DNA of 64,000 nt from Bartonella taylorii 8TBB. Its GTDB lineage: Bacteria; Pseudomonadota; Alphaproteobacteria; Rhizobiales; Rhizobiaceae. The notes beneath the pieces are model-generated. The model searched no databases and had not been told where the DNA came from. It saw nothing but the letters and a program-made list of their open reading frames with translations. The stretch is from the NCBI RefSeq assembly GCF_902825155.1, contig NZ_CADEAG010000001.1, positions 310,001 through 374,000 on the forward strand, given 5' to 3'. A program made the translations under genes and the position numbers. Numbering within the stretch: the stretch's first letter is position 1; every line of letters starts with the position of its first letter. This document shows, piece by piece, positions 1 to 15,143 of the stretch.

Positions 1-438
1 TCGTGCTGTTATAACTTCTGGTTTTTTTATTTTTTGGTAAACATCCTCAATTCTACAATGATAAACTTTTGCTGGAAGATTAAGTTGAGCAATGACCATT
101 CGTAAAAAAGCTACTTTTTTACCATTACTTTCAACGAGATCAATATGTCCTGCTTTTTTTTGTTTCAGAAAAATAGCAATAACAATTGCGGGAAATCCAC
201 CACCTGAACCAAGGTCACACCAATGAAGAAAATTGCTGTGTAAAGGATATATTTGTGCCGAATCTAAAATATGACGTGTCCAGAGAACTGGTATTGTTGT
301 AGAAGATATTAAATTAATATGTTTGTTCCATTGAATTATTAAAGCTTCAAATTGTATTAAATCCTCCATCGTTTCACGTGAAACAAAAGGAACAATATTT
401 AAAAGTGCTTGATATTTTTGTTCTGTAGAAATATCCAT
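1..438 (-). CDS. rsmG: RsmG, 16S rRNA (guanine-527-N7)-methyltransferase, 3' part missing
   Basis: This gene methylates G527 of 16S rRNA with S-adenosylmethionine. It is read from the ATG at 438 and stays open to the window edge (146 codons), so the C-terminus lies outside. The translation has the family N-terminal HINLIS stretch (about residues 40-45) and the SAM-binding GSGGGFP motif (77-83). Its ATG overlaps the TAA of mnmG by one base, so the two are translationally coupled, the usual mnmG-rsmG order that precedes parA-parB. Codons 19-23 (VSRET) are written by a perfect parS-like palindrome, so this coding sequence doubles as a centromere site. Identification is firm; only the end is unknown. 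Confidence 0.95.
   Translation of the reverse strand, partial: MDISTEQKYQALLNIVPFVSRETMEDLIQFEALIIQWNKHINLISSTTIPVLWTRHILDSAQIYPLHSNFLHWCDLGSGGGFPAIVIAIFLKQKKAGHIDLVESNGKKVAFLRMVIAQLNLPAKVYHCRIEDVYQKIKKPEVITAR
371..384. promoter_or_regulatory. parS: parS-like ParB-binding palindrome inside rsmG
   Basis: The 14-bp perfect palindrome GTTTCACGTGAAAC matches the core of the bacterial parS consensus TGTTTCACGTGAAACA. It lies in codons 19-23 of rsmG. Two more copies lie 2 kb away. ParB binding is inferred from the match and the location near the origin. Confidence 0.85.
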
Positions 439-2306
439 TAAACAAATTGAGCCTTTTCACGTCGTTGGCGTTGAATATACGTAATAATAAGCGATAATGC
501 CGCGGGCGTCATACCATCAATTTTTTGAGCATCAGCAATTGAACGCGGGGATATTTCTTGAATTTTTGTTTTTAGTTCATTTGAAAGACCTGAAATTGCC
601 TGAATATCAAGAGAAGAAGGGATTTCTAAACGCTCATCTCGCTGAAGAGCAGCAATATCTTGTGCTTGCTTTTCTAGATAAACTGCATACTGCGCTTCAA
701 TTTCTAAAGATTCAACAGTTTTAGAATCAATTGATCGCAATTGTGGCCAAAAATGTGAAAGACGTTCTATCGTCATATGAGGATAAGCAAGAAGATCATA
801 AGCCGAACGCCGAATTCCATCGTGATTTACCTGTAATCCTCGAGAAGATGCTTCATTAGGTGTTAGAAAAAGTCCCTGACATATTGATCGTGCTAAATCA
901 AGACGTTGTTGTTTTTTCTGATAAAAATCCCAACGGTTTTGACCCACAATACCCCATTGTTGTGCCAAAGGTGTTAAACGAGCATCAGCGTTATCAGACC
1001 GCAGAGACAAACGAAATTCAGCACGTGATGTAAACATTCGATAAGGCTCACAAACCCCACGTGAAATTAAATCATCTATCATAACACCAATATAGGCTGT
1101 AGAACGACTTATAAGAATTTCATCTAATCCAGAAACTTTCCGTGCAGCATTTAATCCAGCTAAAAGTCCTTGTGCTGCAGCTTCCTCATATCCTGTTGTA
1201 CCATTAATTTGCCCTGCTAAAAACAATCCTGGTAAAGAACGCAATTCTAAAGTTTTAGTCAGTTGTTGTGGATTAACAAAGTCATATTCAATAGCATAAC
1301 CAGGTTGTAAAACCTTAACATTTTCTAGCCCTTCAATTGTTTTCAATAAAGAAATTTGGACATCTTCAGGAAGAGATGTAGAAAGACCATTTGGATAAAT
1401 AGTATCATCATTTAATCCTTCTGGTTCTAGAAAAATCTGATGTCCATCACGTTCCCCAAATTTAATAATTTTATCTTCAACTGAAGGACAATAACGTGGT
1501 CCTAATCCTTCAATATTTCCAGAATATAAAGCAGACCGATGAATGTTTTCACGAATAATTTTATGCGTTTGCGCATTCGTACGTGTTATTGCACATTCAA
1601 TTTGTGACTGTTCAATTTTTTCTGTTAAAAGAGAAAAGGAAACTGGATTTTCATCAGCTTGTTGTTTGGGAAGATACTCCCAACGAATTGTTTTTTTACT
1701 GAGACGAGCTGGAGTTCCTGTTTTTAACCTTCCAAGATTTATATTATAATTTTTTAAACGTTCAGCAAGTTTAACACTCGACTGTTCTCCCATCCGTCCA
1801 GCAGGCCATTTTTTATCACCAATATGAATAAGCCCATTTAAAAATGTCCCTGTAGTTAAAACAACAGCACCAGAAAAAAGCTTTCCCTGTTTTTTTAAAA
1901 CAACACCTGAAACATAATTATCTTTAACAATAAGATCAATGACTTCATCTTCAAGTAGAATGAGATTATCTTGTTCTTGTAAAAAACTCTGAATTGCTTC
2001 TTTATAGAGTTGTCTATCAGCTTGTGTACGCGGTCCTCTTACTGCGGGTCCTTTGCGTCGATTAAGTAGTCTAAATTGAATTCCAGCAGCATCTGCTGCT
2101 CTCCCCATAAGACCATCCAAAGCGTCTATTTCACGAACCAGATGTCCTTTTCCAAGCCCACCTATAGCGGGATTACAAGACATTGTCCCTATTGCTGATA
2201 TTTTATGCGTAATGAGTGCGGTCCGCGCTCCAACACGTGCTGAAGCTGAAGCAGCTTCACAGCCTGCATGACCACCCCCAACAACAACAACATCATATAA
2301 TTGCAT
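438..2306 (-). CDS. mnmG: MnmG (GidA), tRNA uridine-34 5-carboxymethylaminomethyl synthesis enzyme
   Basis: This FAD-dependent partner of MnmE modifies U34 of tRNAs that read NNA and NNG codons. The protein opens with the Rossmann motif [10 protein letters not shown] and is 622 residues from the chosen start, the usual family length. Two ATGs compete, at 2315 and 2306. An AGG abuts the first ATG but sits nine bases before the second, and the family usually starts close to YDVVVVGGG, so 2306 is preferred. It lies downstream of mnmE across a spacer with two parS-like sites and runs straight into rsmG. Its partner gene mnmE being adjacent supports the function. Confidence 0.95.
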
Positions 2307-2337
2307 TTGTTTCATCCTATAGAAAACCTATTCTCAA

Positions 2338-2414: not shown

Positions 2415-3722
2415 TTATTTACCAACACAAAACTCTGAAAAAATAATATCAAGCAAATCTTCAACATCTATATCTCCTGTAATCCTCCCAAGAAAATCAC
2501 TTGCACGGCGAAGATGTTCTGCGCGTAAACTTAAATCAAGAGTATGATGATTTATGGAAAATTCTATCTCTTTAACAGCTTCTTTTAATAACTGAAGTTG
2601 CCTTTTACGTGCTGGAACAAGATTTCCGATTTCAGCAGCACGACGTAAACAAAATGACTCAAGTTCTTTAATAAAAGAATCAAAATTTAAACCAGTTATT
2701 GCAGAAAACTGTATAGACCAATGATTTTCATTTTTTTCATAAAGGTCAAGCTTATTACCAACACGCCATATTTCAGCCGATGTTTTTGGTAATTCGATCT
2801 CTTTTGGATTTAGCATATCATAAACTAAAATAACTAAATCAGCATCCCTAACATGCTGCCTTGCCACTTCTATTCCTAATTGCTCAATTTTGTTTTCTGT
2901 TTCCCTAAAACCAGCAGTATCCGTCACAAAGACCGGTAAACCACCAAAAACAAGTCTCATTTCCAAAGCATCACGAGTCGTTCCTGCTTCTTCTGTCACA
3001 ATAGCAACAGGTCTTCCAGCCAAACGATTCATAATACTTGATTTTCCAGAATTTGGAGCACCAGCAATGACAATCTTTAATCCATCACGTAAAATACTAG
3101 CACGCTCTCCTTCAGCAATATGTTTGCGAAGAGAAGCACAAAATTCTTCCATATTTTTCCAAACTTCATCAGATATTGAGTTTGGGATATCAGCTTCATC
3201 AGAAAAATCAAGCTCTGCTTCTATAAAAGCACGTGCTTTTATAAGCTTATTACGCCAATCACGATAAAGAGTTGTTAAACGTCCACTTGTCCCCATAACT
3301 GCTAAACGTCGCTGACTTTCCGTTTCTGCCTCTATTAAATCAGCAAGACCTTCTGCTTGAACAAGATCTAATTTTCCCTCTATAAATGCACGACGCGAAA
3401 ATTCACCTGCCTCTGCAACACGACATCCAGTAAATGTGGATAACTCATCGAGAAAACGATTAACAACTGCTTTTCCTCCATGTAAATGAAATTCTGCACA
3501 ATCCTCCCCTGTAAAACTATGAGGAGCAGGAAAAAAAACAGTTAAAGCAGAATCTAGAAAACTACCATCACGAGCAGTAAGATTTCCATAATGCATAAAC
3601 CGTGCTTTTGGTAAGCAACCACAAAGCGTTTTAACTACATTTACAACATGGGGACCAGAAAGCCGAATGACCGCAACCCCTGAAGGCAACAACCCACTCG
3701 AAACAGCAAAGATTGTATCCAC
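2415..3722 (-). CDS. mnmE: MnmE (TrmE), tRNA modification GTPase
   Basis: This GTPase works with MnmG to build the 5-carboxymethylaminomethyl group on tRNA U34. Visible motifs are the G1 loop GAPNSGKSS, G3 DTAG and G4 NKLD. The essential C-terminal motif is CVGK (family C[IV]GK). The reading frame extends upstream to a TTG, but the GTG at 3722 gives the family N-terminus DTIFAVSSG and has GGGA eight bases before it. From there the protein is 435 residues. It ends 33 bp after rho would begin to its right in the same leftward group, consistent with co-transcription from the origin side. Confidence 0.95.
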   Translation of the reverse strand: MDTIFAVSSGLLPSGVAVIRLSGPHVVNVVKTLCGCLPKARFMHYGNLTARDGSFLDSALTVFFPAPHSFTGEDCAEFHLHGGKAVVNRFLDELSTFTGCRVAEAGEFSRRAFIEGKLDLVQAEGLADLIEAETESQRRLAVMGTSGRLTTLYRDWRNKLIKARAFIEAELDFSDEADIPNSISDEVWKNMEEFCASLRKHIAEGERASILRDGLKIVIAGAPNSGKSSIMNRLAGRPVAIVTEEAGTTRDALEMRLVFGGLPVFVTDTAGFRETENKIEQLGIEVARQHVRDADLVILVYDMLNPKEIELPKTSAEIWRVGNKLDLYEKNENHWSIQFSAITGLNFDSFIKELESFCLRRAAEIGNLVPARKRQLQLLKEAVKEIEFSINHHTLDLSLRAEHLRRASDFLGRITGDIDVEDLLDIIFSEFCVGK

Positions 3723-3755
3723 AGGATGTATCCCAATCAAAAAAATCCAATATTT

Positions 3756-5021
3756 CTACGTATTCATTGAATCAAAGAATTCACTATTGTTTTTTGTTTG
3801 TTTGAGTTTATCAATCAAAAACTCAATTGCATCTGTTACATTCATAGGCGCCAAAATGCGACGAAGTACAAAAATTTTATGTAAATCTTGTCGTGCTACT
3901 AAAAGCTCTTCTTTACGTGTTCCTGACTTTAATATATCCATAGCTGGGAAAATTCGCTTATCAGCAACTTTACGATCAAGAACAATTTCCGAATTACCAG
4001 TACCTTTAAATTCTTCAAAAATAACCTCATCCATACGACTACCAGTATCAATCAAAGCCGTTGCAATAATGGTTAAAGATCCACCCTCTTCAATGTTACG
4101 TGCTGCACCAAAAAAACGTTTTGGACGCTGTAGCGCATTTGCATCTACACCACCTGTTAAAACCTTACCTGATGAAGGAACAACCGTATTATACGCACGT
4201 CCAAGACGTGTAATAGAATCGAGAAGAATAACGACATCACGCCCATATTCAACAAGACGTTTTGCTTTTTCAATAACCATCTCAGCTACTTGCACATGTC
4301 GAATTGCTGGTTCATCAAAAGTAGAAGAAACTACTTCTCCTTGTACAGAACGCTGCATATCAGTAACTTCTTCTGGTCGTTCATCTATTAAAAGAACGAT
4401 AAGATAACATTCAGGATGATTAGTCGTAATAGAATGAGCAATATTCTGGAGTAAAACTGTTTTTCCTGTTCGAGGAGGCGCTACAATTAATCCTCTTTGC
4501 CCTTTTCCCAAAGGTGATATTAAATCAATCACCCGCGATGACATATCCTTCTCTGTAGGATCTTGTATTTCCATTTGAAAACGTTCATTAGAATAAAGGG
4601 GAGTGAGATTATCAAAATGAATTTTATAACGAATTTTCTCAGGATCTTCAAAATTAATTGTATTAATTTTAAGAAGAGCAAAATAACGTTCCCCCTCTTT
4701 TGGACTTCGTATAGGACCTTCAACGGTATCCCCTGTTTTCAAAGAAAACGATTGAATTTGTGCCGGAGAAAGATAAATATCATCAGGTCCTGGAAGATAA
4801 TTAGCATCAGCAGACCGCAAAAATCCAAATCCATCTTGTAAAACTTCAACAACTCCTTCTCCAATAATTTCCACATCTTGCAAAGCAAGTTTTTTCAAGA
4901 TAGCGAACATTAATTCTTGTTTACGCATTAGAGAAGCATTTTCAACTTCCAATGTTTCAGCAAAAGAGACAAGTTCAACGGGATTTTTACTTTTAAGTTC
5001 TTGTAGTTTCATTTCTTGCAT
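3756..5021 (-). CDS. rho: Transcription termination factor Rho
   Basis: Rho is the hexameric RNA-dependent ATPase helicase that ends transcription at Rho-dependent sites. The 421-residue product shows the N-terminal helical start MKLQELKSK and the RNA-binding cold-shock-like fold with [20 protein letters not shown]. It also has the Walker A motif APPRTGKT (about 180), Walker [17 protein letters not shown] and the Q/R loop region. Length is normal. It is the first gene left of the putative origin and is transcribed away from it. A 246-codon frame on the opposite strand (3667-4407) is an antisense shadow. Confidence 0.97.
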
Positions 5022-5253
5022 GAAATATGCTCTTTAGAGTGACGGGAAATTATCCTTGAATTAATTTACGGAAATTTTTGAGAATGGAACATTCTTATAA
5101 AGGAAAAAGATTTTACACTCAATTTTCTTAATCTGCAAGCACCATTTATATGAATTGTATTCGTATAATATTAAGTAATTGTATAAAAGATCAGTTATGC
5201 AAATTGGAAAATAACATCTTTTATAAAATAAATATAGACTTATTTCAGATATT

Positions 5254-5268
5254 TTAATTGAATATAAA
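5254..5268. promoter_or_regulatory. Weak CtrA-like site in the AT-rich stretch
   Basis: TTAATTGAATATAAA matches the CtrA pattern TTAA-N7-TTAA at 7 of 8 fixed bases. In DNA this AT-rich a chance match is quite possible, so it is recorded only as a companion to the perfect site at 5575. Confidence 0.3.
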
Positions 5269-5386
5269 ATTAGTTTATATCATTAACAAATCAATACCTA
5301 AAGGTATTTTCATATAATAAATTTTTAAAAAAAGAGTTATTTTTATTTTTGTCTGTGTTTAGTGTGAATTACTAGTTATACTTAAA

Positions 5387-5513
5387 TTATCCTCAATTTT
5401 ATCAACAGAGAAAAAATAAAAAAAAATAAACACAACACTATCTTAAAGATATTATCCCCACTCTTCTTTTATAAAAATGATTCAATGATCACAACCATTC
5501 AATTTGTGCATAA
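5387..5513. promoter_or_regulatory. Cluster of four near-consensus DnaA boxes
   Basis: Sites against TTATCCACA are TTATCCTCA (5387-5395), TTATCAACA (5399-5407), TTATCCCCA (5452-5460) and, on the minus strand, TTATGCACA (5505-5513). Each has one mismatch. A weaker TTATGCAAA lies near 5195. Four 8/9 matches in 127 bp next to a 90 percent AT stretch is the layout expected of an origin. Confidence 0.65.
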
Positions 5514-5574
5514 TAATATAAAATTTTTTCTAAATTCTAGTTTTACAAAAAATCTCAGAGTATATGCACATTTG

Positions 5575-5589
5575 TTAACAAGGAGTTAA
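5575..5589. promoter_or_regulatory. Perfect CtrA-type box overlapping the ppsR ribosome binding site
   Basis: TTAACAAGGAGTTAA is a full match to the CtrA recognition pattern TTAA-N7-TTAA. The seven-base centre contains the AAGGAG Shine-Dalgarno sequence of ppsR (GTG start at 5597). CtrA sites in the origin silence initiation in Caulobacter; the same role here is inferred. Confidence 0.5.
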
Positions 5590-5596
5590 AATTTTT

Positions 5597-6421
5597 GTGA
5601 CAAAAGAAAAAAAATCCTTTCATTTGCATATGCTTTCTGATGCAACAGGAGAGACATTAATTTCTGTTGGTAGAGCCGTTGCTTCACAATATACAATGAG
5701 CCAAGTAACAGAGCATATTTATCCAATGATTCGTAATGAAACACAGTTGGAGAGAGCTCTTAATGAAATACAACAAGAGCCGGGTATTGTTCTTTACACA
5801 ATCATTGATAAAAAAATAAAACTCCTTCTTAGGAAAAGATGTGAAAAAATAAAAGTTCCCTGTATTGACATATTACATCCTGTTCTAGATGCTTTTCAGA
5901 CATATCTTGGAATGCCGACCAATTTACGTGCGAGTGCACAGCATGATCTCAATGCAGATTATTTTCGCCGTATTGAAGCACTTGATTTTACAATAGAGCA
6001 TGATGATGGGCAGTCTTCCAATGATTTATCGGATGCAGACGTGATACTTGTAGGAATCTCAAGAACTTCTAAAACGCCTACGAGTATCTATTTAGCAAAT
6101 CGTGGAATTAAAACAGCTAATGTTCCTCTTATTCCGAGTATTGATTTACCAGAAGCTCTTTTGGAAGCAAAAAATGCTTTGATTATTGGTTTAATAGCTT
6201 CAGCTGAAAGAATTTCACACATTCGTCAAAATAGAGATTTGGGGGATAGTTTTGCCCTTGAAAGTTATACGGATCGCGTCAGTATAGCTGAAGAATTGAC
6301 TTACGCAAAACGTATTTGTGAACGTTTTGGTTGGCCTATTATTGATGTCACAAGACGTTCTATTGAAGAAACAGCTGCAGCTATATTTGAACTTTTGTCG
6401 CGATTTCGTGAAGGAAAATGA
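5597..6421 (+). CDS. ppsR: PpsR/DUF299 kinase-pyrophosphorylase, regulator of PEP synthase or pyruvate phosphate dikinase
   Basis: Members of this family phosphorylate and dephosphorylate PEP synthase or pyruvate phosphate dikinase, using ADP for inactivation and phosphate for reactivation. The 274-residue protein starts FHLHMLSDATGET, typical of the family. It has the nucleotide-binding GISRTSKTPTS segment near residue 153 followed by NRGIKTANVPLIP. It starts with GTG; an AAGGAG sits 11 bases upstream and no nearer ATG fits. It is the first gene right of the putative origin, as its homologue is in Caulobacter and Rickettsia. The target enzyme is not in this window. Confidence 0.92.
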   Translation: MTKEKKSFHLHMLSDATGETLISVGRAVASQYTMSQVTEHIYPMIRNETQLERALNEIQQEPGIVLYTIIDKKIKLLLRKRCEKIKVPCIDILHPVLDAFQTYLGMPTNLRASAQHDLNADYFRRIEALDFTIEHDDGQSSNDLSDADVILVGISRTSKTPTSIYLANRGIKTANVPLIPSIDLPEALLEAKNALIIGLIASAERISHIRQNRDLGDSFALESYTDRVSIAEELTYAKRICERFGWPIIDVTRRSIEETAAAIFELLSRFREGK

Positions 6422-6433
6422 AAGAAGACTCTC

Positions 6434-7030
6434 ATGCTAGCAGATACGTTAATCTTAGCATCCCTTAGTTCTTATCGTGCACAATTATTGAAAAAAGCAG
6501 GTTTAAATTTTTTCATTGAAGGAGCTTCTTTTGATGAAAGAGAAGTAGAAAAGACAGAAAAAACAAAGACTCCTAAAGAACTCAGTTGTTTTCTTGCAAG
6601 TGCAAAGGCAAAAAATGTTTCTGATCGCTTTCCTTATGCCTTGGTCATTGGTTGTGATCAAGTACTTGATTTGGAAGGACAGGTTTTTCACAAAGTCAAA
6701 AGTAGCAAGGAAGCACATCGACGTTTATCTGATCTATCAGGAAAAACTCACGCTCTTCATAGTGCAGTAGCTTTATTTCACAATGGTCAAGAAATTTGGG
6801 TGGAAGCCTTTAGTGCCCATATGTCGGTACGTCCTCTCTCGTCAGAATTTATTGAACGTTATTTAGCACGTGTAGGAACAGCTGTTTTTAACAGCGTAGG
6901 AGTTTATCAAATTGAAGGAGAGGGAATCCATCTTTTTGAAAGAATTGATGGAGATTTTTTTACTATTATTGGTTTACCTTTGTTACCTTTATTAGCAAAA
7001 TTGCGTCATTTGGGAATTATTGATGGTTAA
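6434..7030 (+). CDS. maf: Maf-like nucleotide pyrophosphatase
   Basis: Maf proteins hydrolyse non-canonical or modified nucleoside triphosphates. The 198-residue product starts with the family signature [15 protein letters not shown] and carries the FDERE and [15 protein letters not shown] segments that hold the catalytic acidic residues. The C-terminal [15 protein letters not shown] matches the family end. It lies 12 bp after ppsR and overlaps aroE, so ppsR-maf-aroE-coaE-dnaQ looks like one rightward operon. The exact substrate cannot be told from sequence. Confidence 0.92.
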
Positions 7031-7904
7031 CTTTACAATAAAACGCGAAAAAATAATTTCTCCACGTGCTTTTGTTGTTGGCATTCCTATTCATCATTCA
7101 ATGTCGCCAAAAATTCACAATTTTTGGCTTAAACAATATAATTTACAAGGTGAATATCTAGCACAAGAAGTAACATCTGAAAAATTTAGTGATTTTCTTA
7201 CATCTATGCAAAAAAGGGGTTTTTGTGGGGGCAATGTTACTCTGCCACATAAACAGGAAGCTTTTCATTTAGCAAATTATAAAGATGATGTAGCAACAAT
7301 GATTGGAGCTGCTAATACACTATGGTATGAAAGGGATAAACTTTGTGCCACAAATACTGATGCTTATGGTTTCAGTGCTAATCTTGATGATTCTATTTCT
7401 GATTGGGTTGGGGAGACAGCTCTTGTTTTTGGTGCTGGTGGCGCTGCACGTGCAATCTTATATGCTTTAAAAGAGCGTGGATTTGAACGTATTTTCTTAG
7501 CTAATCGTACAAAAAAACGGGCAGATGATTTAGCTGAACATTTTGGAAAACCTGTTAAAGTCCATGATTGGCACTGTTCTAGCGAAATACTTTACCAAGC
7601 TGATTTAATTGTCAACACGACTTCTGTGGGGATGACAAATCCACACGAGAATAAAAGTGATTCTTTTTTTTGCGATTTTAATAAAACAAAAACATCAACG
7701 TTGGTAACAGATATTGTTTATACACCATTGATGACGCCTTTTTTACAACAAGCAAAAGCACACGGTTTAAGGATAGTAGATGGACTTGGTATGCTTTTAC
7801 ATCAAGCTGTTCCTGGTTTTGAACGATGGTTTGGAATGAGACCACAGGTTACGAAGGCATTACGAGCAGCAATTTTAGAGGATATGGGTGAAAAAAAGGA
7901 ATGA
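7023..7904 (+). CDS. aroE: Shikimate dehydrogenase AroE
   Basis: This enzyme reduces 3-dehydroshikimate to shikimate with NADPH in the aromatic amino acid pathway. The 293-residue protein shows the substrate site [12 protein letters not shown], the catalytic lysine in NVTLPHK, NTDAYGF, and the NADP-binding GAGGAARAI. The frame can be extended one codon to a TTG at 7020, but the ATG at 7023 is preferred; it overlaps the end of maf by 8 bp. The stop overlaps the coaE start (ATGA). Tight overlaps on both sides indicate coupled translation. Confidence 0.95.
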
Positions 7905-8488
7905 AAATTATAGGACTTACTGGATCAATTGCTATGGGAAAATCAACAGTTGCTAATTTTTTCAGACAAGCTGGTATTTCTGTTTTTAATGCTGATGAAG
8001 CGGTACACCAACTTTACGAGCGTGAACCAGCTTTATCGCTTATAGCACGTACATTCCCTACTGTTATTGAAAATGGTAAAGTTAATCGCCTAAAGCTTTC
8101 TGAAATTTTGATGAACAATAATGAACAATTACAAACATTAGAAAAAGTAATTCACCCTTTAGTTAAAAAAAAAGAAAAAGAGTTTATTGATACAGCGCGC
8201 CAAAAAAGAGAAAAATTAGTTGTTCTTGATATTCCACTTCTTTTTGAAACGAAGAGTGAAAAACGTGTAGACAGTGTAGTTGTTGTCTCTGCTCCACGAG
8301 AAATACAAAAAAGGCGTGTAATGATTCGTCCAAATATGAATGAAAAAAAATTTGCCTTGATCAATGCTAGACAAATGTCTGATGAAAAAAAACGAGAACG
8401 TGCTGATTTTATTATTGATACAGGAAAAGATTTAGAGAATACACGTCAACAAGTTTTTTGCCTGATAAAAAGTTTGCTAAAGAAGTAA
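7901..8488 (+). CDS. coaE: Dephospho-CoA kinase CoaE
   Basis: CoaE phosphorylates dephospho-CoA in the last step of coenzyme A synthesis. The P-loop [12 protein letters not shown] opens the 195-residue protein, followed by [11 protein letters not shown] and the LDIPLLFE segment of the CoA-binding domain. Its ATG overlaps the aroE stop by four bases and AAGGA sits directly before it. CoaBC for earlier steps is encoded far away at 49.6-51.0 kb. Length and motifs are normal. Confidence 0.95.
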
Positions 8489-8492
8489 AATA

Positions 8493-9200
8493 ATGCGTGA
8501 AATTATTTTTGATACAGAAACAACAGGTTTAGATAAAGAGAAAGATCGCATAATCGAAATAGGTTGTGTAGAGATGATTGATCGTTATCTTACGGGACGC
8601 CGATTCCATGTTTATTTGAATCCGCAAGGCGTTATCATTCCTGATGAAGTTGTAGCAATTCATGGATTGACCAATGAACGCTTAAAAAATGAAAAAATCT
8701 TTAGTGATATTGCTGATGAGTTTTTGGAATTTATTAATGGCGCAACAATGATTGCACATAATGCGAGTTTTGATATTGGCTTTCTTAATGCAGAATTAGA
8801 ACGAGTGAATAAACCACTTATCAGTGTTGATAACATTCTTGATACATTAGCCATGGCGCGGCGTAAATTTCCCATGGGTCCTAATTCTCTTGATGTTTTG
8901 TGCAAACGCTTTGGAATTGATAATAGCCATCGTGTTCTTCATGGTGCTTTGCTTGATGCGGAGATTCTCGCCGATGTTTATATTGAACTCATTGGTGGAA
9001 AGCAGGGCGTATTGGGTTTTGATAACAGGGGGAGTATTGATGAGGATACTCAAAATGACAAAGATGCCCTCTACGCAGTTAAATTTCGCCCACAGCCTTT
9101 ACCTTCAAGACTAAGTGCACAAGAAAGAAGTATGCATGCTGATTTTATCAACAAAATGGTTAAAAAAGCTCTGTGGAATGACTTTGAAGTTTCTGAATAG
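8493..9200 (+). CDS. dnaQ: DNA polymerase III epsilon subunit (3'-5' proofreading exonuclease)
   Basis: This is the DEDDh proofreading exonuclease of the replicase. Exo I is FDTETTGLDKEKDRIIEIG, Exo II is AHNASFDIGFLN and Exo III is HGALLDAEILADVY, all intact in 235 residues. It starts 4 bp after coaE and closes the origin-proximal operon. A 335-bp spacer with a strong hairpin follows. In several relatives secB is a neighbour; it is not seen here. Confidence 0.95.
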   Translation: MREIIFDTETTGLDKEKDRIIEIGCVEMIDRYLTGRRFHVYLNPQGVIIPDEVVAIHGLTNERLKNEKIFSDIADEFLEFINGATMIAHNASFDIGFLNAELERVNKPLISVDNILDTLAMARRKFPMGPNSLDVLCKRFGIDNSHRVLHGALLDAEILADVYIELIGGKQGVLGFDNRGSIDEDTQNDKDALYAVKFRPQPLPSRLSAQERSMHADFINKMVKKALWNDFEVSE

Positions 9201-9282
9201 TTCGGCCACCCTTTCCCTGAAAAAGTTATTTGAAAACTTAGGAAGAACAAAGCCTCTAGAAATGTGTTCTTCAAAAAAATAT

Positions 9283-9315
9283 GGTCGTTGTGGGGAGGGG
9301 AACACCACAACGACC
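9283..9315 (+). ncRNA. Perfect 11-bp stem hairpin, possible leader or small RNA
   Basis: GGTCGTTGTGG (9283-9293) pairs perfectly with CCACAACGACC (9305-9315) around an 11-base purine-rich loop that contains GGAGGGG. No T-tract follows, so it does not look like a simple intrinsic terminator. The loop resembles a ribosome binding sequence. Function is unknown. Confidence 0.4.
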
Positions 9316-9356
9316 CTGTCGCTACATAGCACCTCAGCTATCATAGGAGGAGCAAA

Positions 9357-9398
9357 ATGAAAGCTATTATATCCTGTAACAGCAAAGAAAAGCTCTAG
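9357..9398 (+). CDS. Possible 13-residue leader peptide before polA
   Basis: An ATG at 9357 follows an unusually good Shine-Dalgarno sequence (TAGGAGGA, six bases upstream) and opens a frame of 13 codons that ends in TAG at 9398. The peptide reads MKAIISCNSKEKL. The frame is too short to judge by composition; the ribosome binding site and the flanking inverted repeats are the only support. It could be a regulatory upstream frame for polA, a real micropeptide, or chance. Confidence 0.3.
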   Translation: MKAIISCNSKEKL

Positions 9399-9535
9399 GT
9401 ACTAAACATAAGTCGTAGCGACTTCATGAAAAGAAAAAATGGCTTTTTAGAGGCAGATCGATAAATTTTAAAAATAATAGTGAAAAAAATATATAAAAGT
9501 GAATTGTTTTTTTGAAATGGAGAAATGAAATTGTC

Positions 9536-12442
9536 ATGAAAGCAACAGATCATCTTTTTTTGGTTGATGGATCGGGCTATATTTTTCGTGCTTACTACGC
9601 TTTGCCACCTTTAAAGCGCAAAAAGGATGGGCTTCCTGTGGGAGCTGTAGCTGGTTTTTGTAATATGCTGTGGAAATTGCTCTGTGATGCACGCAATACA
9701 GCTACCGGCGTTGTTCCAACGCATTTTGCTGTTATTTTTGACTATTCATCCGATACATTTCGGAAACAAATTTATCCACAATATAAAGCTAATCGGGAGA
9801 CACCTCCTGAAGATCTTATTCCTCAATTTGCTCTAATACGCCAAGCAACAAGGGCTTTTAATTTGCCTTGTATCGAAAAGGAAGGATTTGAAGCGGATGA
9901 TTTAATTGCTACCTATGCAACACTGGCAACAAAGATTGGGGCAAAAACAACGATTATCTCTTCTGATAAAGATCTTATGCAATTAGTAAATACGCATGTA
10001 TCTTTATATGATGGAATGAAAGATAAGCATATCGGTATTTCTGAGGTTGTAGAGAAATGGGGTGTTGTTCCTGAAAAAATGGTCGATTTACAAGCTTTGA
10101 TTGGAGATCTAACAGATAATGTTCCAGGAATTCCAGGCATTGGTCCCAAAATTGCAGCCCAATTGTTAGATCAATTTGATTCTCTTGATCTTTTGTTACA
10201 GCGAGTGACAGAAGTTAAGCAAACAAAACGACGTGAAAATATTCAAATTTATAGTGAACAAGCAAAAATTTCTCGTGAACTCGTTCGGCTTAAAACAGAT
10301 GTACCTGTAGATAATGATTTAGATGATTTTGTTTTAGAATCACAAGATGGTCCACGCTTAATCGCTTTTCTTAAAGCGATGGAATTTACGACATTAACAC
10401 GTCGTGTAGCAGCGACAACAGAATGTGACGCAGCAGTTATTGATGCACTCGATATAAATGTTGAGTGGGAAAAACCCACTCATGGGCGTGATTTTGATGT
10501 TAAAAAAATTGAGGGAGCATCTTTTCATGATTTTTCTGAAAATTCTCCACAATGTTTAGCACAAAAACGTAAAGATCAAGCTCTTACCCAAAAAATTACA
10601 AGAGATACCTATACAACTATTCTTGATGAAGAAATCTTGAAAAAATGGTTGTCAAAAACACAAGAGCAAGGCTTCTTTGCTTTTGATACTGAAACCACTT
10701 CTCTTGATCCACTGCAAGCAGAGATTGTTGGTTTTTCATTGGCATTACAGCCTGGAGAAGCTGCTTATGTACCCCTTGAACACGTTGAAGGAGGAGATGA
10801 TCTTTTAGGCGGTGGGCGCATTGTCAAACAGATTGAGGTACAAAAAGCTTTGGCACTTTTAAAGCCGATATTAGAAGACCAGTCGGTGTTAAAAATTGGT
10901 CAGAATATAAAGTATGATTGGTTGGTGATGAAGCAATACGGCATTGTGATACGCTCTTTTGATGACACCATGCTTTTATCATATGTTTTAGATACAGGAA
11001 CTCTAACACATAATATGGACGATTTATCTGAGCGTTGGCTTGGACATAAACCGATTGCTTACAAAGATCTAACGTATAACGGAAAAAAGATAACTTCTTT
11101 TGCGCAAGTGGATTTAAAACAGGCAACTCTTTATGCAGCGGAAGATGCCGATGTAACGCTGCGTTTGTGGCAAGTTTTAAAACCGCAACTTGTGGCGCAA
11201 GCGATGACAAAAATTTATGAGCGTCTTGATCGACCACTGGTAGAAGTTCTTGCAAGAATGGAAGAACGCGGGATTCTTGTTGATCGACAGATTTTATTGC
11301 GTCTTTCAGGAGAATTAGCGCAGGCTGCTTTTCTTCTAGAAGAGGAAATTTATCAATTGGCTGATGAAAAGTTTAATCTTGCCTCGCCAAAGCAATTGGG
11401 TGATATCCTTTTTGGCAAAATGGGATTACCTGGAGGTGCTAAAACCAAGGGGGGACAGTGGTCAACCTCTGCGCAGACCTTAGAGGAATTAGCTGCTGAG
11501 GGTCATATTTTACCTCGTAAAATTATTGATTGGCGTCAACTTGCAAAGCTAAAATCCACTTATGCAGATGCTCTACCTTCTTACATTTTACCAAAAACAG
11601 GGCGTGTTCATACCAATTATTCTTTGGCAACAACATCAACGGGGCGGTTGTCATCATCAGATCCCAATTTACAAAATATTCCAGTGCGGACTGCTGAAGG
11701 GCGTAAAATACGCACGGCTTTCATCGCTCCAAAAGGACATGTACTACTATCGGCTGATTATAGCCAGATTGAATTGCGCATTCTTGCACATATTGCCGAC
11801 ATTACGGCGCTAAAGGAAGCTTTTGCAAAAGGTCAGGATATTCACGCTATAACGGCATCGCAAATGTTTGGGGTTCCTATAGAGGGAATGCACTCAGATA
11901 TAAGACGACGTGCAAAAGCGATTAATTTTGGCATTATTTATGGCATTTCAGCTTTTGGATTAGCCAATCAATTGGGTCTTTCGCGGCAGGAAGCTGGGCG
12001 TTATATTCAACTTTATTTTGAAAGATTTCCGGGAATTAAAGACTATATGGAAACGACTAAAACATTTGTACGCCAAAATGGTTATGTAGAGACTATTTTT
12101 GGACGCCGTATCCATTATCCGGAAATAAAATCAGCTAATCTACAAGTCCGTTCTTTTAATGAACGTGCTGCTATCAATGCACCGATTCAAGGATCAGCGG
12201 CGGATATTATCCGTCGTGCCATGATTCAAATGGAAGAAGCTTTGGAAAAAGAAAAACTATCGGCAAAGATGCTGCTACAAGTGCATGATGAACTCATTTT
12301 TGAGGTACCAGAAGACGAAAGTGAAAAAACCATGGCTGTTGTTAAAAAGGTTATGGAAAATGCTACAATGCCGGTTCTTTCTTTGTCTGTACCACTTGAA
12401 GTGAAAGTAATGGTTGCTCAAAATTGGGAGGAGGCACATTAG
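9536..12442 (+). CDS. polA: DNA polymerase I
   Basis: PolA fills gaps and removes RNA primers. The 968-residue protein has all three parts. The 5'-3' exonuclease begins with LVDGSGYIFRAYYAL. A complete 3'-5' proofreading domain has FDTETTSLDP (about 385). The family A polymerase has motif A SADYSQIELRILAH, motif B RRRAKAINFGIIYG and motif C QVHDELIFEVP. The frame extends upstream to a TTG at 9512, but the ATG at 9536, with GGAGA upstream, gives the normal family start. The gene converges on the next gene with a 4-bp overlap. Confidence 0.96.
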   Translation: MKATDHLFLVDGSGYIFRAYYALPPLKRKKDGLPVGAVAGFCNMLWKLLCDARNTATGVVPTHFAVIFDYSSDTFRKQIYPQYKANRETPPEDLIPQFALIRQATRAFNLPCIEKEGFEADDLIATYATLATKIGAKTTIISSDKDLMQLVNTHVSLYDGMKDKHIGISEVVEKWGVVPEKMVDLQALIGDLTDNVPGIPGIGPKIAAQLLDQFDSLDLLLQRVTEVKQTKRRENIQIYSEQAKISRELVRLKTDVPVDNDLDDFVLESQDGPRLIAFLKAMEFTTLTRRVAATTECDAAVIDALDINVEWEKPTHGRDFDVKKIEGASFHDFSENSPQCLAQKRKDQALTQKITRDTYTTILDEEILKKWLSKTQEQGFFAFDTETTSLDPLQAEIVGFSLALQPGEAAYVPLEHVEGGDDLLGGGRIVKQIEVQKALALLKPILEDQSVLKIGQNIKYDWLVMKQYGIVIRSFDDTMLLSYVLDTGTLTHNMDDLSERWLGHKPIAYKDLTYNGKKITSFAQVDLKQATLYAAEDADVTLRLWQVLKPQLVAQAMTKIYERLDRPLVEVLARMEERGILVDRQILLRLSGELAQAAFLLEEEIYQLADEKFNLASPKQLGDILFGKMGLPGGAKTKGGQWSTSAQTLEELAAEGHILPRKIIDWRQLAKLKSTYADALPSYILPKTGRVHTNYSLATTSTGRLSSSDPNLQNIPVRTAEGRKIRTAFIAPKGHVLLSADYSQIELRILAHIADITALKEAFAKGQDIHAITASQMFGVPIEGMHSDIRRRAKAINFGIIYGISAFGLANQLGLSRQEAGRYIQLYFERFPGIKDYMETTKTFVRQNGYVETIFGRRIHYPEIKSANLQVRSFNERAAINAPIQGSAADIIRRAMIQMEEALEKEKLSAKMLLQVHDELIFEVPEDESEKTMAVVKKVMENATMPVLSLSVPLEVKVMVAQNWEEAH

Positions 12443-13317
12443 CCTTTTTCGCTTATTTTGTTTTTAAGAATGGTCATTGCATTGGCAAGATCAAGATAAG
12501 CTTTGATAGGCAAATGATCTGAAGCAATACGTGCAAGTGGTGAATGATGATTTTCAATATTTGTTAGCAATTGATGGGGAAAAGCAAGAATTCTATCAAG
12601 AGCCAAAAAGGGAAAACGAGAAGGAAAACTTGGTACAGTTCCAAGTGTGCTATCAAAATAGGGAGAGAAATGATTTAAAGAAGAGCCTTTTCCTATCCGC
12701 CATTCATTAAAATCCCCAACGAGGAGTGTCGGCATAAGGGGGCGTTTTTGCAGAAGTGCAAGGAGCGTTTTTGTTTGTTGATTACGAGAATGGCGTAATA
12801 AGCCAAAATGAGCGGCAATAATACGTATAAGGCCTACTTCCATTTCAAACTCTACAATCACAGCACCACGTGGTTCAATACCAGGAAGAGTGACTTGTAG
12901 GATATCGCGTACATGTCCTTTTCGCAAAAAAAGAGCGTTCCCATGCCAGCCATGCCCTTGAGGTGACATGGTATTCAGAGGCACTGGAATCAGACCTGTT
13001 TCGGCCTTTAATAGTTGAAGATCAATCAAGCCAATGCGTTCACCAAAACGTTTGTCTGCTTCTTGAAGGGCAAGAATATCAACGCGCAATTCAGCAATAA
13101 CACGTACAATACGCGTAGGATTAAAAATTTTATCAACACCTACGCATTTATGAACATTATAGGAAGCAACAGTAAGATCATAGTTATTGTTCTGATTGAT
13201 TATCTCTGATCGATGATGAGAATGGCTGCGAATAGTATGTAAAAGGGAACCACGAAGCTTTTGCTGGATAAATGCGGTAAACTGAGGAAATTTTTGCTTA
13301 TAAGGTATCTTTGTCAT
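12439..13317 (-). CDS. Endonuclease/exonuclease/phosphatase family protein
   Basis: The 292-residue protein belongs to the metal-dependent fold shared by exonuclease III, DNase I and phosphoinositide phosphatases. Seen are ASYNVHKCVG near 50, LQEADKRF with the catalytic glutamate, GDFNEW with the Asp/Asn pair, and the terminal SDHLPIKAYL with the catalytic histidine. Its substrate cannot be told: this subfamily includes nucleases and phosphodiesterases. No signal peptide is evident. It is convergent with polA, overlapping by four bases. The upstream side carries a strong terminator shared with the next gene. Confidence 0.8.
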   Translation of the reverse strand: MTKIPYKQKFPQFTAFIQQKLRGSLLHTIRSHSHHRSEIINQNNNYDLTVASYNVHKCVGVDKIFNPTRIVRVIAELRVDILALQEADKRFGERIGLIDLQLLKAETGLIPVPLNTMSPQGHGWHGNALFLRKGHVRDILQVTLPGIEPRGAVIVEFEMEVGLIRIIAAHFGLLRHSRNQQTKTLLALLQKRPLMPTLLVGDFNEWRIGKGSSLNHFSPYFDSTLGTVPSFPSRFPFLALDRILAFPHQLLTNIENHHSPLARIASDHLPIKAYLDLANAMTILKNKISEKG

Positions 13318-13370
13318 TTTATGAAGAGGGTTGTACTAAGAGGTAAGGGTAAGCATTTGTGCTAAAAACA

Positions 13371-13406
13371 AAAGAACCTTGTTTCTTTTTAGAAACAAGG
13401 TTCTTT
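13371..13406. terminator. Strong hairpin terminator, likely bidirectional
   Basis: AAAGAACCTTGTTTC (13371-13385) and GAAACAAGGTTCTTT (13392-13406) form a perfect 15-bp stem with a six-base loop. A and T runs on both flanks suit termination on either strand. It lies just after the Bax-inhibitor-1 gene. Confidence 0.8.
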
Positions 13407-13434
13407 AATTGAGCTATAACTTTGACTTTTACAA

Positions 13435-14208
13435 TCAATCACGGTTTGAGCCAAGAAATTGTAGCAAGAAGACAAACATATTGATGAAATCAAGATAAAG
13501 ATTCAGTGCACCCATAATAATCTTACGACCTTTCGTGTCACTTTCATCTCCTTCGTAATACATCAACTTAATGCTTTGTGTGTCGTAAGCTGTTAAACCA
13601 GCAAAAATCAACACGCCAATCACGGAGATAGCAAATTGCAAGGCACTTGATCCAAGAAAGATATTCACAATCATAGAAAAAAACAAACCGATCAAACCCA
13701 TAAAAAGGAATGAACCTATCGCCGTAAGGTCACGCTTTGTTGTATAACCATAAAGTGAAAGAGAACCAAAAGCCGCAGCGGAAATAACAAATGTTTGCAC
13801 AATACTTTCTGTCGTATAGCGCAAAATGATTGAGGACAGTGAAAGCCCAACGAGAGCAGCATAACCAAAAAAGAGACTGCGGGCTGCACTTGTACTCAAC
13901 GTGTTGATTTTGAAACTGAGGAATAATACTGCCACAAGTGGTGCAAACATAACAATATAAGAGAGCGGCGATGTATAAAATGTTACTCCAAACGAGGTTA
14001 AGTAAACACTGCTATTGATTTGAGCGGCTGCCTGGCTCATATCTGTTGTCGTTGCTAATGATGCAATTGCGTAAGCAGCAGCGGCTGTAATAAGCAAACC
14101 AATGGCCATTGTATTATAGACGCCCAGCATATAGCTGCGCAATCCTTGATCAATTGATGCATCGGCACGGGAAACAGACGCCGAACGTAAATTTTTAAAA
14201 TCAGCCAT
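13435..14208 (-). CDS. Bax inhibitor-1/YccA family inner-membrane protein
   Basis: This 257-residue protein has about seven hydrophobic segments from residue 30 onward and the family features LRSYMLGVYNTMAIGLL near the start and GLTAYDTQSIKLMYYEGD toward the end. It finishes with LNLYLDFINMFVFLLQFLGSNRD. Bacterial members act as pH-sensitive calcium leak channels or modulators of membrane proteolysis; which applies here is unknown. It is monocistronic, with a strong terminator after it and a 935-bp spacer before it. Confidence 0.9.
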   Translation of the reverse strand: MADFKNLRSASVSRADASIDQGLRSYMLGVYNTMAIGLLITAAAAYAIASLATTTDMSQAAAQINSSVYLTSFGVTFYTSPLSYIVMFAPLVAVLFLSFKINTLSTSAARSLFFGYAALVGLSLSSIILRYTTESIVQTFVISAAAFGSLSLYGYTTKRDLTAIGSFLFMGLIGLFFSMIVNIFLGSSALQFAISVIGVLIFAGLTAYDTQSIKLMYYEGDESDTKGRKIIMGALNLYLDFINMFVFLLQFLGSNRD

Positions 14209-15143
14209 AATATAAAGTCCTTTAGCATATGTTCCACCAGATGTTGGGGTTAAAAAAGATCTATGCCATTAAAACCGTAAGCTTGTGTAAGCTCTTACCT
14301 TAGCATATACAACCAACCCCAGGCGCCGCTGGCGGAATTCCAGCATACCTTCCCTTATTATGGAGATTTATTTTAAAATTACAAGAGACTTATCTTGGGA
14401 AGAAACCTTACAAATTGGTAAGAAAGATATTTATTTTCAATAAAACCATTAAGTCTTTATTTATAACGCTTTTGTGAGGGAGAAGGTTAAAGTAGACTTT
14501 TTTATTGCTCATAATATAATATCAAATCTATTAGGCACCACTATCTTTGTGTTTATGAAACTACAAACAGCACCAATCATTATATTTTGATTACCAATGT
14601 TGCGTCTGCAAGTTCCATCAAAGGTATATTGTATTATTTAAAACAGCATTTTCAAAACATATACCAATTCATCTATTGATCTTTTATTAAATGTTTTTTC
14701 TGTTTTAGAGTAAAGCAGTGTGAAACAGTCAAATTCCGCAATATCAAAGAGTCTGAATTCGATATGAAAAATGGTTACTTGTATTTAAAATTAATGAGTT
14801 AATTTTATAATTGGAAGATATGTAAAAAAGAGAGCAATGAAAGAATGAAAAGAATTTGTGCAATTATTTTAGTATAACGACTATAGCCATTAAAAAAACA
14901 ACGCGGAAAATGATAAAGTAAAAAAATGCAGTTTTTTTAAAAAAACAGTTTGCCCTTGATGCTTTAAAAGCATAGCTGTAAAAATAACAGAACAGAATTC
15001 TTTTAACAAAACGATAACATAAAATCGTAAAAAACGATTTCCATAATATAAGGTATGAAGATGTGCATATCTTATCAATATATTCTATGAAATGCGATTG
15101 TTTTTGGCAAATGAACAAGCTTTTATTCAGACGGTTTACGATT
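14209..15143. other. 935-bp spacer, no convincing gene
   Basis: No intact gene is recognised. Close to the Bax-inhibitor-1 start a GC-rich patch stands out in AT-rich DNA (GGCGCCGCTGGCG near 14322-14334, then GGAATTCC), and CTTTAGCATATG (about 14220) recurs as CTTAGCATATA (about 14300), which may mark promoter-proximal sites. A 13-bp sequence at 14597 recurs at 44102. A minus-strand frame at 14864-15118 is hydrophobic and low in complexity and is probably not a gene. Confidence 0.5.

Follow-up and report, generated by a model that had tools for sequence, protein, structure and literature searches.

The spacer between rho and the ppsR homologue, at positions 5022-5596 of the window (the whole 64,000-base stretch of DNA analysed here), is very probably the chromosomal oriC of this Bartonella, an origin of the ordinary type for the Rhizobiaceae/Bartonella group, inherited from an ancestor with the gene order rho-hemJ-hemE-oriC-ppsR. 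This assignment, put forward in an earlier note on the same DNA, is supported by the GC-skew minimum, a cluster of DnaA boxes, a conserved anchor box, and the gene order in relatives. The skew minimum, the box cluster, a cluster of parS-like sites, the conservation, the gene order, and the gene absences were all obtained by computation.

Genomic context of the rho-ppsR spacer

The window covers positions 310001-374000 of contig C1 (508,614 bases) of genome G000, whose assembly comprises 2.01 Mb in 236 contigs and is 99.99% complete. A search for ppsR homologues returned 34 loci, 33 from Bartonella and one weak match (38%) in a Limnoglobus MAG; the nearest match, at 97%, belongs to Bartonella sp. 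DB5-6, and the window DNA is Bartonella. The genes on both sides of the spacer are as follows:

438-2315, minus strand: mnmG (gidA), TIGR00136 (NCBIfam)
2415-3740, minus strand: mnmE, NF003661 (NCBIfam)
3756-5021, minus strand: rho, left origin flank, TIGR00767 (NCBIfam)
5022-5596, no strand: rho-ppsR spacer with the putative oriC; 575 bases, 22% G+C, skew minimum at 5556
5597-6421, plus strand: ppsR homologue (COG1806/DUF299 type), right origin flank, NF003742 (NCBIfam)
6434-12442, plus strand: maf, aroE, coaE, dnaQ, and polA, a rightward leading-strand run (NCBIfam)

The switch in gene direction at the spacer was thereby reproduced: mnmG, mnmE, and rho lie on the minus strand, as does rsmG (identified by eye), and ppsR to polA lie on the plus strand. 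In locus L016, rsmG, parA, and parB continue leftward on the minus strand; these open reading frames (ORFs) were named by eye. The sole DnaA-family match in the genome search is located at C1:458,812, approximately 143 kb from the spacer, which is therefore not a dnaA-linked origin. Scans of the window with Rfam (at gathering scores) and for tRNAs gave no match, and a plasmid collection queried with the spacer gave none at an E-value of 1e-5. The spacer contains one GANTC site, at 5479.

Two side observations concern the surrounding genes. About 2-3 kb to the left of the window, with parB on one side and an ORF read by eye as glyoxalase-like on the other, are two tandem ORFs of 167 and 169 amino acids (L016:6911-7414 and 7485-7994) that share an identical first 46 residues and are similar over the remainder; judged by this similarity, the pair is a local duplication near the origin. 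In another genome (L225, i.e. G007:C1:1-4000, positions 1422-1751), the aroE matches were confined to two short pieces at its ends, which would fit a deletion of the middle.

GC skew

Cumulative GC skew was calculated on the 508-kb contig (467 N), the remainder of the assembly lying in other contigs. The minimum for this contig falls at C1:315,556, that is, at window position 5556, within the 575-base spacer. For B. koehlerae C-29 we used a supercontig of 1,737,518 bases with 11,865 N, the genome being listed at ~1.7 Mb. Its skew minimum, at 312,877, is again within the homologous spacer (312,363-313,003), and its maximum, at 1,139,758, lies 827 kb from the minimum, with a half-length of 869 kb, and thus near the opposite pole. 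The earlier note had proposed a skew minimum elsewhere as an argument against the origin; in both sequences the minimum was found inside the spacer and not elsewhere.

Genome G016, a near relative in a single contig with a ppsR 97% identical, gave a similar picture. In an 18-kb stretch around the locus, the skew minimum is at L224:5533, in the rho-ppsR spacer, which is bounded by ppsR from 5347 and rho from 6003 (L224). The skew was further sampled in 20 samples of 20 kb covering 0-0.94 Mb of the 1.94-Mb contig: up to 0.80 Mb, 16 of the 17 samples have a positive skew and one has -0.029, and the final three, beginning at 0.82 Mb, are negative. The sampled change of sign near 0.8 Mb is ~1.0 Mb from the spacer, which is located near 1.727 Mb.

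DnaA boxes and AT-rich tracts

Of the 33 Bartonella loci fetched, 31 reach rho, which in every one of them is the gene next to ppsR on the left; their spacers measure 502-654 bases. Two loci (L045 and L052) start near a contig end, stop short of rho, and were left out of this count. We refer to these 31 loci together with the window as rho-bordered (n = 32), a term that covers the absence of hemE from this locus only. All 32 spacers were aligned, and 20 of them were taken into a display alignment. DnaA boxes were scored against the 9-base consensus TTATCCACA. The elements of the spacer are the following:

5219-5278, no strand: most AT-rich 60 bases, 6 G/C; overlaps the variable part of the spacer
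5347-5596, no strand: conserved origin core adjoining ppsR; majority-base share of 0.76-0.92 per 25-base bin (32 spacers)
5363-5371, minus strand: weak DnaA box TAATTCACA, 7/9; TAATCCACA, 8/9, in 9 of 32 spacers
5387-5395, plus strand: DnaA box TTATCCTCA, 8/9; identical in 22 of 32 spacers
5399-5407, plus strand: DnaA box TTATCAACA, 8/9; perfect TTATCCACA in 24 of 32 spacers
5410-5431, no strand: A-rich tract flanked by boxes and putative unwinding element; the 20 spacers of the display alignment are A-rich here as well
5452-5460, plus strand: DnaA box TTATCCCCA, 8/9; TTATCC in 31 of 32 spacers, an 8/9 box there in only 9 of 32
5505-5513, minus strand: DnaA box TTATGCACA, 8/9, family-wide anchor box; offset and strand conserved
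5562-5570, plus strand: weak DnaA box ATATGCACA, 7/9; from the box scan and the aligned spacers
5574-5589, minus strand: candidate CtrA-type site TTAA-N7-TTAAC, GTTAACAAGGAGTTAA; perfect motif match

The four 8/9 boxes between 5387 and 5513 that had been noticed previously are present, and further 7/9 boxes occur in the spacer besides those at 5363 (minus) and 5562 (plus). The cluster exceeds chance expectation: 3000 dinucleotide shuffles of the spacer contained on average 0.21 boxes at 8/9, and none of them reached four. The 508-kb contig has 207 boxes matching at least 8/9 (0.41 per kb), and the spacer provides its only 150-base window with four. Each of the 32 rho-bordered spacers has between 2 and 5 boxes (mean 3.25). 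The B. koehlerae spacer has three boxes within 150 bases. A separate 150-base window with three boxes of at least 8/9 was observed in B. koehlerae C-29 at 1,083,272, ~56 kb from the skew maximum; box density as the sole criterion for an origin was rejected because of this second window.

The AT-rich stretch pointed out in the earlier note is real, with 6 G/C in 60 bases, and only 0.09% of the contig's 60-mers have a G+C content as low. As an argument for the origin it is weaker than was claimed: it extends into the part of the spacer with the lowest conservation and makes a poor candidate for a conserved unwinding element. A better one would be the A-tract at 5410-5431, located between boxes.

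Conservation of the origin region

The alignment revealed an uneven distribution of conserved positions in the spacer. Beside the core adjoining ppsR, the rho side (5022-5171) is conserved, with a majority-base share of 0.73-0.86, presumably as the rho leader; between the two, the share falls to 0.25-0.30 at 5197-5246 (partly gaps) and is 0.60 at 5247-5271. Bases within the four boxes are more conserved than the other bases of 5325-5596 (0.946 vs 0.822), these counts coming from related species and hence not being independent.

One box serves as an anchor: it matches at 8/9 on the minus strand, and its first base is located 84-100 bases before ppsR. It was found in 31 of the 32 rho-bordered Bartonella spacers and, on the same strand and at the same offset, in all six hemE-bordered Bartonella spacers and in 23 of 29 spacers from other genera of the family, the 29 being the non-Bartonella loci among the 30 best-scoring of 61 genomes in which ppsR was matched. 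For any other offset, a window of 17 bases contains minus-strand boxes in no more than 7 of the 32 or 6 of the 29 spacers. The place before ppsR and the anchor at a fixed offset are therefore shared with relatives, and the anchor ties the origin to the rhizobial hemE/ppsR spacer by the position of a box and not by gene order alone.

Loss of hemE and hemJ, and a reverse loss of ppsR

The hemE family (PF01208) has no match in the whole assembly (236 contigs, 99.99% complete), nor in 48 of the 61 Bartonella genomes searched, the window's own genome included. In 10 of the 13 hemE-bearing Bartonella genomes, the hemE and ppsR matches are divergent and 437-448 bases apart; in two genomes (G024 and G056) they are found at opposite ends of one contig. 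In other genera, hemE faces ppsR across ~377-437 bases in all 29 loci read. A single gene lies between rho and hemE both in a hemE-bearing Bartonella locus (L151) and in a locus of another genus (L184), and it belongs to the UPF0093 family (PF03653; 8.6e-57 and 2.4e-58, respectively). We take this gene to be hemJ; PF03653 also has no match in the window's assembly. The proposal that hemE was lost beside the origin and ppsR was kept therefore holds, with two refinements, the loss of hemJ and one reverse case. Comparison of the loci indicates that hemE was lost together with hemJ from the order rho-hemJ-hemE-ori-ppsR still found in relatives, and with this pair gone rho became the neighbour of the origin. 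A loss of heme synthesis would be in keeping with a life in blood.

The reverse case is the last of these 13 genomes, G006, in which hemE and a hemJ-like ORF (by eye) are kept and ppsR has no match (L221, i.e. G006:C1:308000-327000, positions 11889-15132). Between the 5' end of hemE (L221:13477) and the start of maf (14536), seven boxes of at least 8/9, two of them perfect, are clustered at 13564-13849. In this 19-kb stretch, skew reaches its minimum at 12887, within hemE and ~0.7 kb from the first clustered box. The boxes stay whichever neighbour goes, which suggests that the origin, rather than its neighbours, is the conserved thing.

CtrA-type site

A CtrA-type site had been cited previously in favour of the origin. 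The site is present and matches the motif at 9/9, but its weight is less than was claimed: 26% of the spacer shuffles contain an 8/8 site (5.8% a 9/9 site), and it shares bases with AAGGAG (5580-5585), the ribosome-binding site of ppsR. We thus rejected it as proof of the origin, given the frequency of 8/8 sites in the shuffles. On the contig, TTAA-N7-TTAA is an uncommon motif (17 occurrences in 508 kb), and it is found in 31 of the 32 rho-bordered spacers, its full 9/9 form in 11 of them. In two spacers AAGGAG is altered (to AAGACG and AAAGGA) and TTAA-N7-TTAA is retained; the B. koehlerae spacer has a disrupted second TTAA. A ctrA gene is present in the window's genome (NF045991, 415 bits; cut-off 350).

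When aligned with relatives, the left half of the CtrA-type site falls on their DnaA box TTATCAACA. An 8/9 box on the plus strand, 18-45 bases ahead of ppsR, occurs in 16 of 29 spacers of other genera, in three of six hemE-bordered Bartonella spacers, and in one of 32 rho-bordered ones; TTAA-N7-TTAA is present in one of the 29 spacers of other genera, at a different place. One scenario, which we regard as rather doubtful, is that in hemE-less Bartonella the DnaA box nearest to ppsR (TTATCAACA in relatives) became TNTTAACA, which together with TTAA seven bases on makes up the CtrA-type site, so that an initiator site would have turned into a repressor site. Direct control of initiation by CtrA is possible on these sequences; if true, initiation in these Bartonella would be under such control from a position at which their rhizobial relatives have no such motif.

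The hemE-bordered Bartonella spacers (L190, L192, L193, L194, L195, and L197) were observed to have TTAA-N7-TTAA 76-78 bases in from hemE in six of six cases. This hemE-side motif is situated ~20 bases before a DnaA box; the rho-bordered species have the motif on the other side of the origin.

We also searched for the strict IHF consensus, WATCAANNNNTTR, and found none in the spacer of the window genome or of B. koehlerae.

parS-like sites

Sites with up to two mismatches to the parS motif TGTTTCACGTGAAACA were considered parS-like. Three are inside the window:

370-385, no strand: parS-like site, 1 mismatch to TGTTTCACGTGAAACA
2337-2352, no strand: parS-like site, 1 mismatch
2399-2414, no strand: parS-like site, 1 mismatch

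The contig has four such sites with one mismatch each (C1 302,393, 310,370, 312,337, and 312,399), and all four are located 2.6-12.6 kb to the left of the spacer. Four of the five matches in B. koehlerae, one of them with two mismatches, are within 13 kb of its spacer, and the fifth, also with two mismatches, is at 1.006 Mb. Both parS-like sites, recognized by motif, and parA and parB, recognized by eye from ORFs, are thus found near the spacer. For an ant-associated relative, a published account places parS and gidAB-parAB near a skew-defined origin and states that its authors found no DnaA boxes (PMC5156944). A search for a dif motif with up to 4 mismatches gave scattered matches among the matches listed, and was dropped.

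Discussion

The reconstructed events at this origin would be the following. DnaA-ATP would bind at least four boxes in the interval 5363-5570, and an AT-rich tract among or beside the boxes, most likely 5410-5431 or nearby, would open. The helicase would then be loaded and forks would leave both ways, the leftward rsmG-rho and rightward ppsR-polA genes being co-oriented with them. ParB is expected to act at the parS sites ~3-13 kb to the left to segregate the new origins. In the lineage of this species, loss of hemJ and hemE would have brought rho beside the origin.

The spacer might instead be a mere divergent promoter region of rho and ppsR in which DnaA serves as a transcription regulator, the true origin being elsewhere. 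The two genes are indeed divergent, TTAACAAGGAGTTAA adjoining ppsR fits a ppsR translation start, and the rho side at 5022-5171 is conserved (0.73-0.86) as a rho leader would be. We nevertheless consider this explanation very unlikely, as it does not account for a skew minimum at this place in two genomes or for the nearby parS-like sites of the contig; moreover, other genera have the anchor box before ppsR even though their left neighbour is hemE, not rho, and seven boxes remain where ppsR has been lost. Still less probable, and hardly to be credited, is that the spacer is a remnant and that Bartonella replicates mainly from some other site, such as the phage-derived origin of run-off replication. 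Replication of this kind has been reported in B. grahamii, with run-off products over-represented in phage particles already in exponential phase, yet the same account calls the phage site an extra origin, with a signal that declines in both directions and extends 'until ori' (PMC2697382). At the rho-ppsR spacer there is a turn in strand skew, which records fork direction over the long term.

The origin in this spacer resembles those of Caulobacter crescentus (Cori) and Rickettsia prowazekii, which are located between hemE and COG1806, as outlined in PMC1914354: the COG1806 (ppsR) flank, the AT-rich spacer, the DnaA boxes, and, as a candidate here, a CtrA-type site are in common. It differs from Cori, for which DnaA, CtrA, and IHF sites are described there, in that ppsR is kept as a boundary gene and hemE has no match, in having one CtrA-type site versus five, and in having no strict WATCAANNNNTTR IHF site in the spacer (PMC1914354). 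The same source mentions changed boundary genes at the origins of Wolbachia, Ehrlichia, and Anaplasma (PMC1914354), so that a change of neighbours is a known theme. Closer at hand, the hemE/oriC/ppsR locus in other genera of the same GTDB family has the same place before ppsR, DnaA boxes, and the anchor in 23 of 29 cases, and rho is situated farther to the left in L184 and L185, the two hemE loci examined; unlike the window, these genera keep hemE, and also hemJ in the one locus scanned (L184).

The place of the origin is not new. In five of the genomes searched, a chromosome-size contig of 1.59-2.62 Mb begins with the ppsR start codon or no more than one or two codons from it (C1 of G007, G025, G028, and G055, and C2 of G053), and their depositors seem already to have numbered from the origin edge at ppsR. 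In B. quintana MF1-1, an oriC predicted by Ori-Finder coincides with the GC-skew switch (PMC11091102); this oriC belongs to the same genus and lies at the skew switch, and its place is presumably the rho-ppsR spacer as well. Two papers treat the chromosomal origin of Bartonella as known and distinct from the phage-derived run-off origin (PMC2697382, PMC3610622). Our literature search, with most subscription papers outside it, found no publication that places the Bartonella origin in the rho-ppsR spacer.

With no hemE match in 48 of the 61 genomes searched, tools that locate origins by means of hemE would overlook the site in many Bartonella. The assignment fixes the origin for a genus that also uses a phage-derived second origin for gene transfer, and would thereby allow a correct reading of Bartonella coverage profiles.
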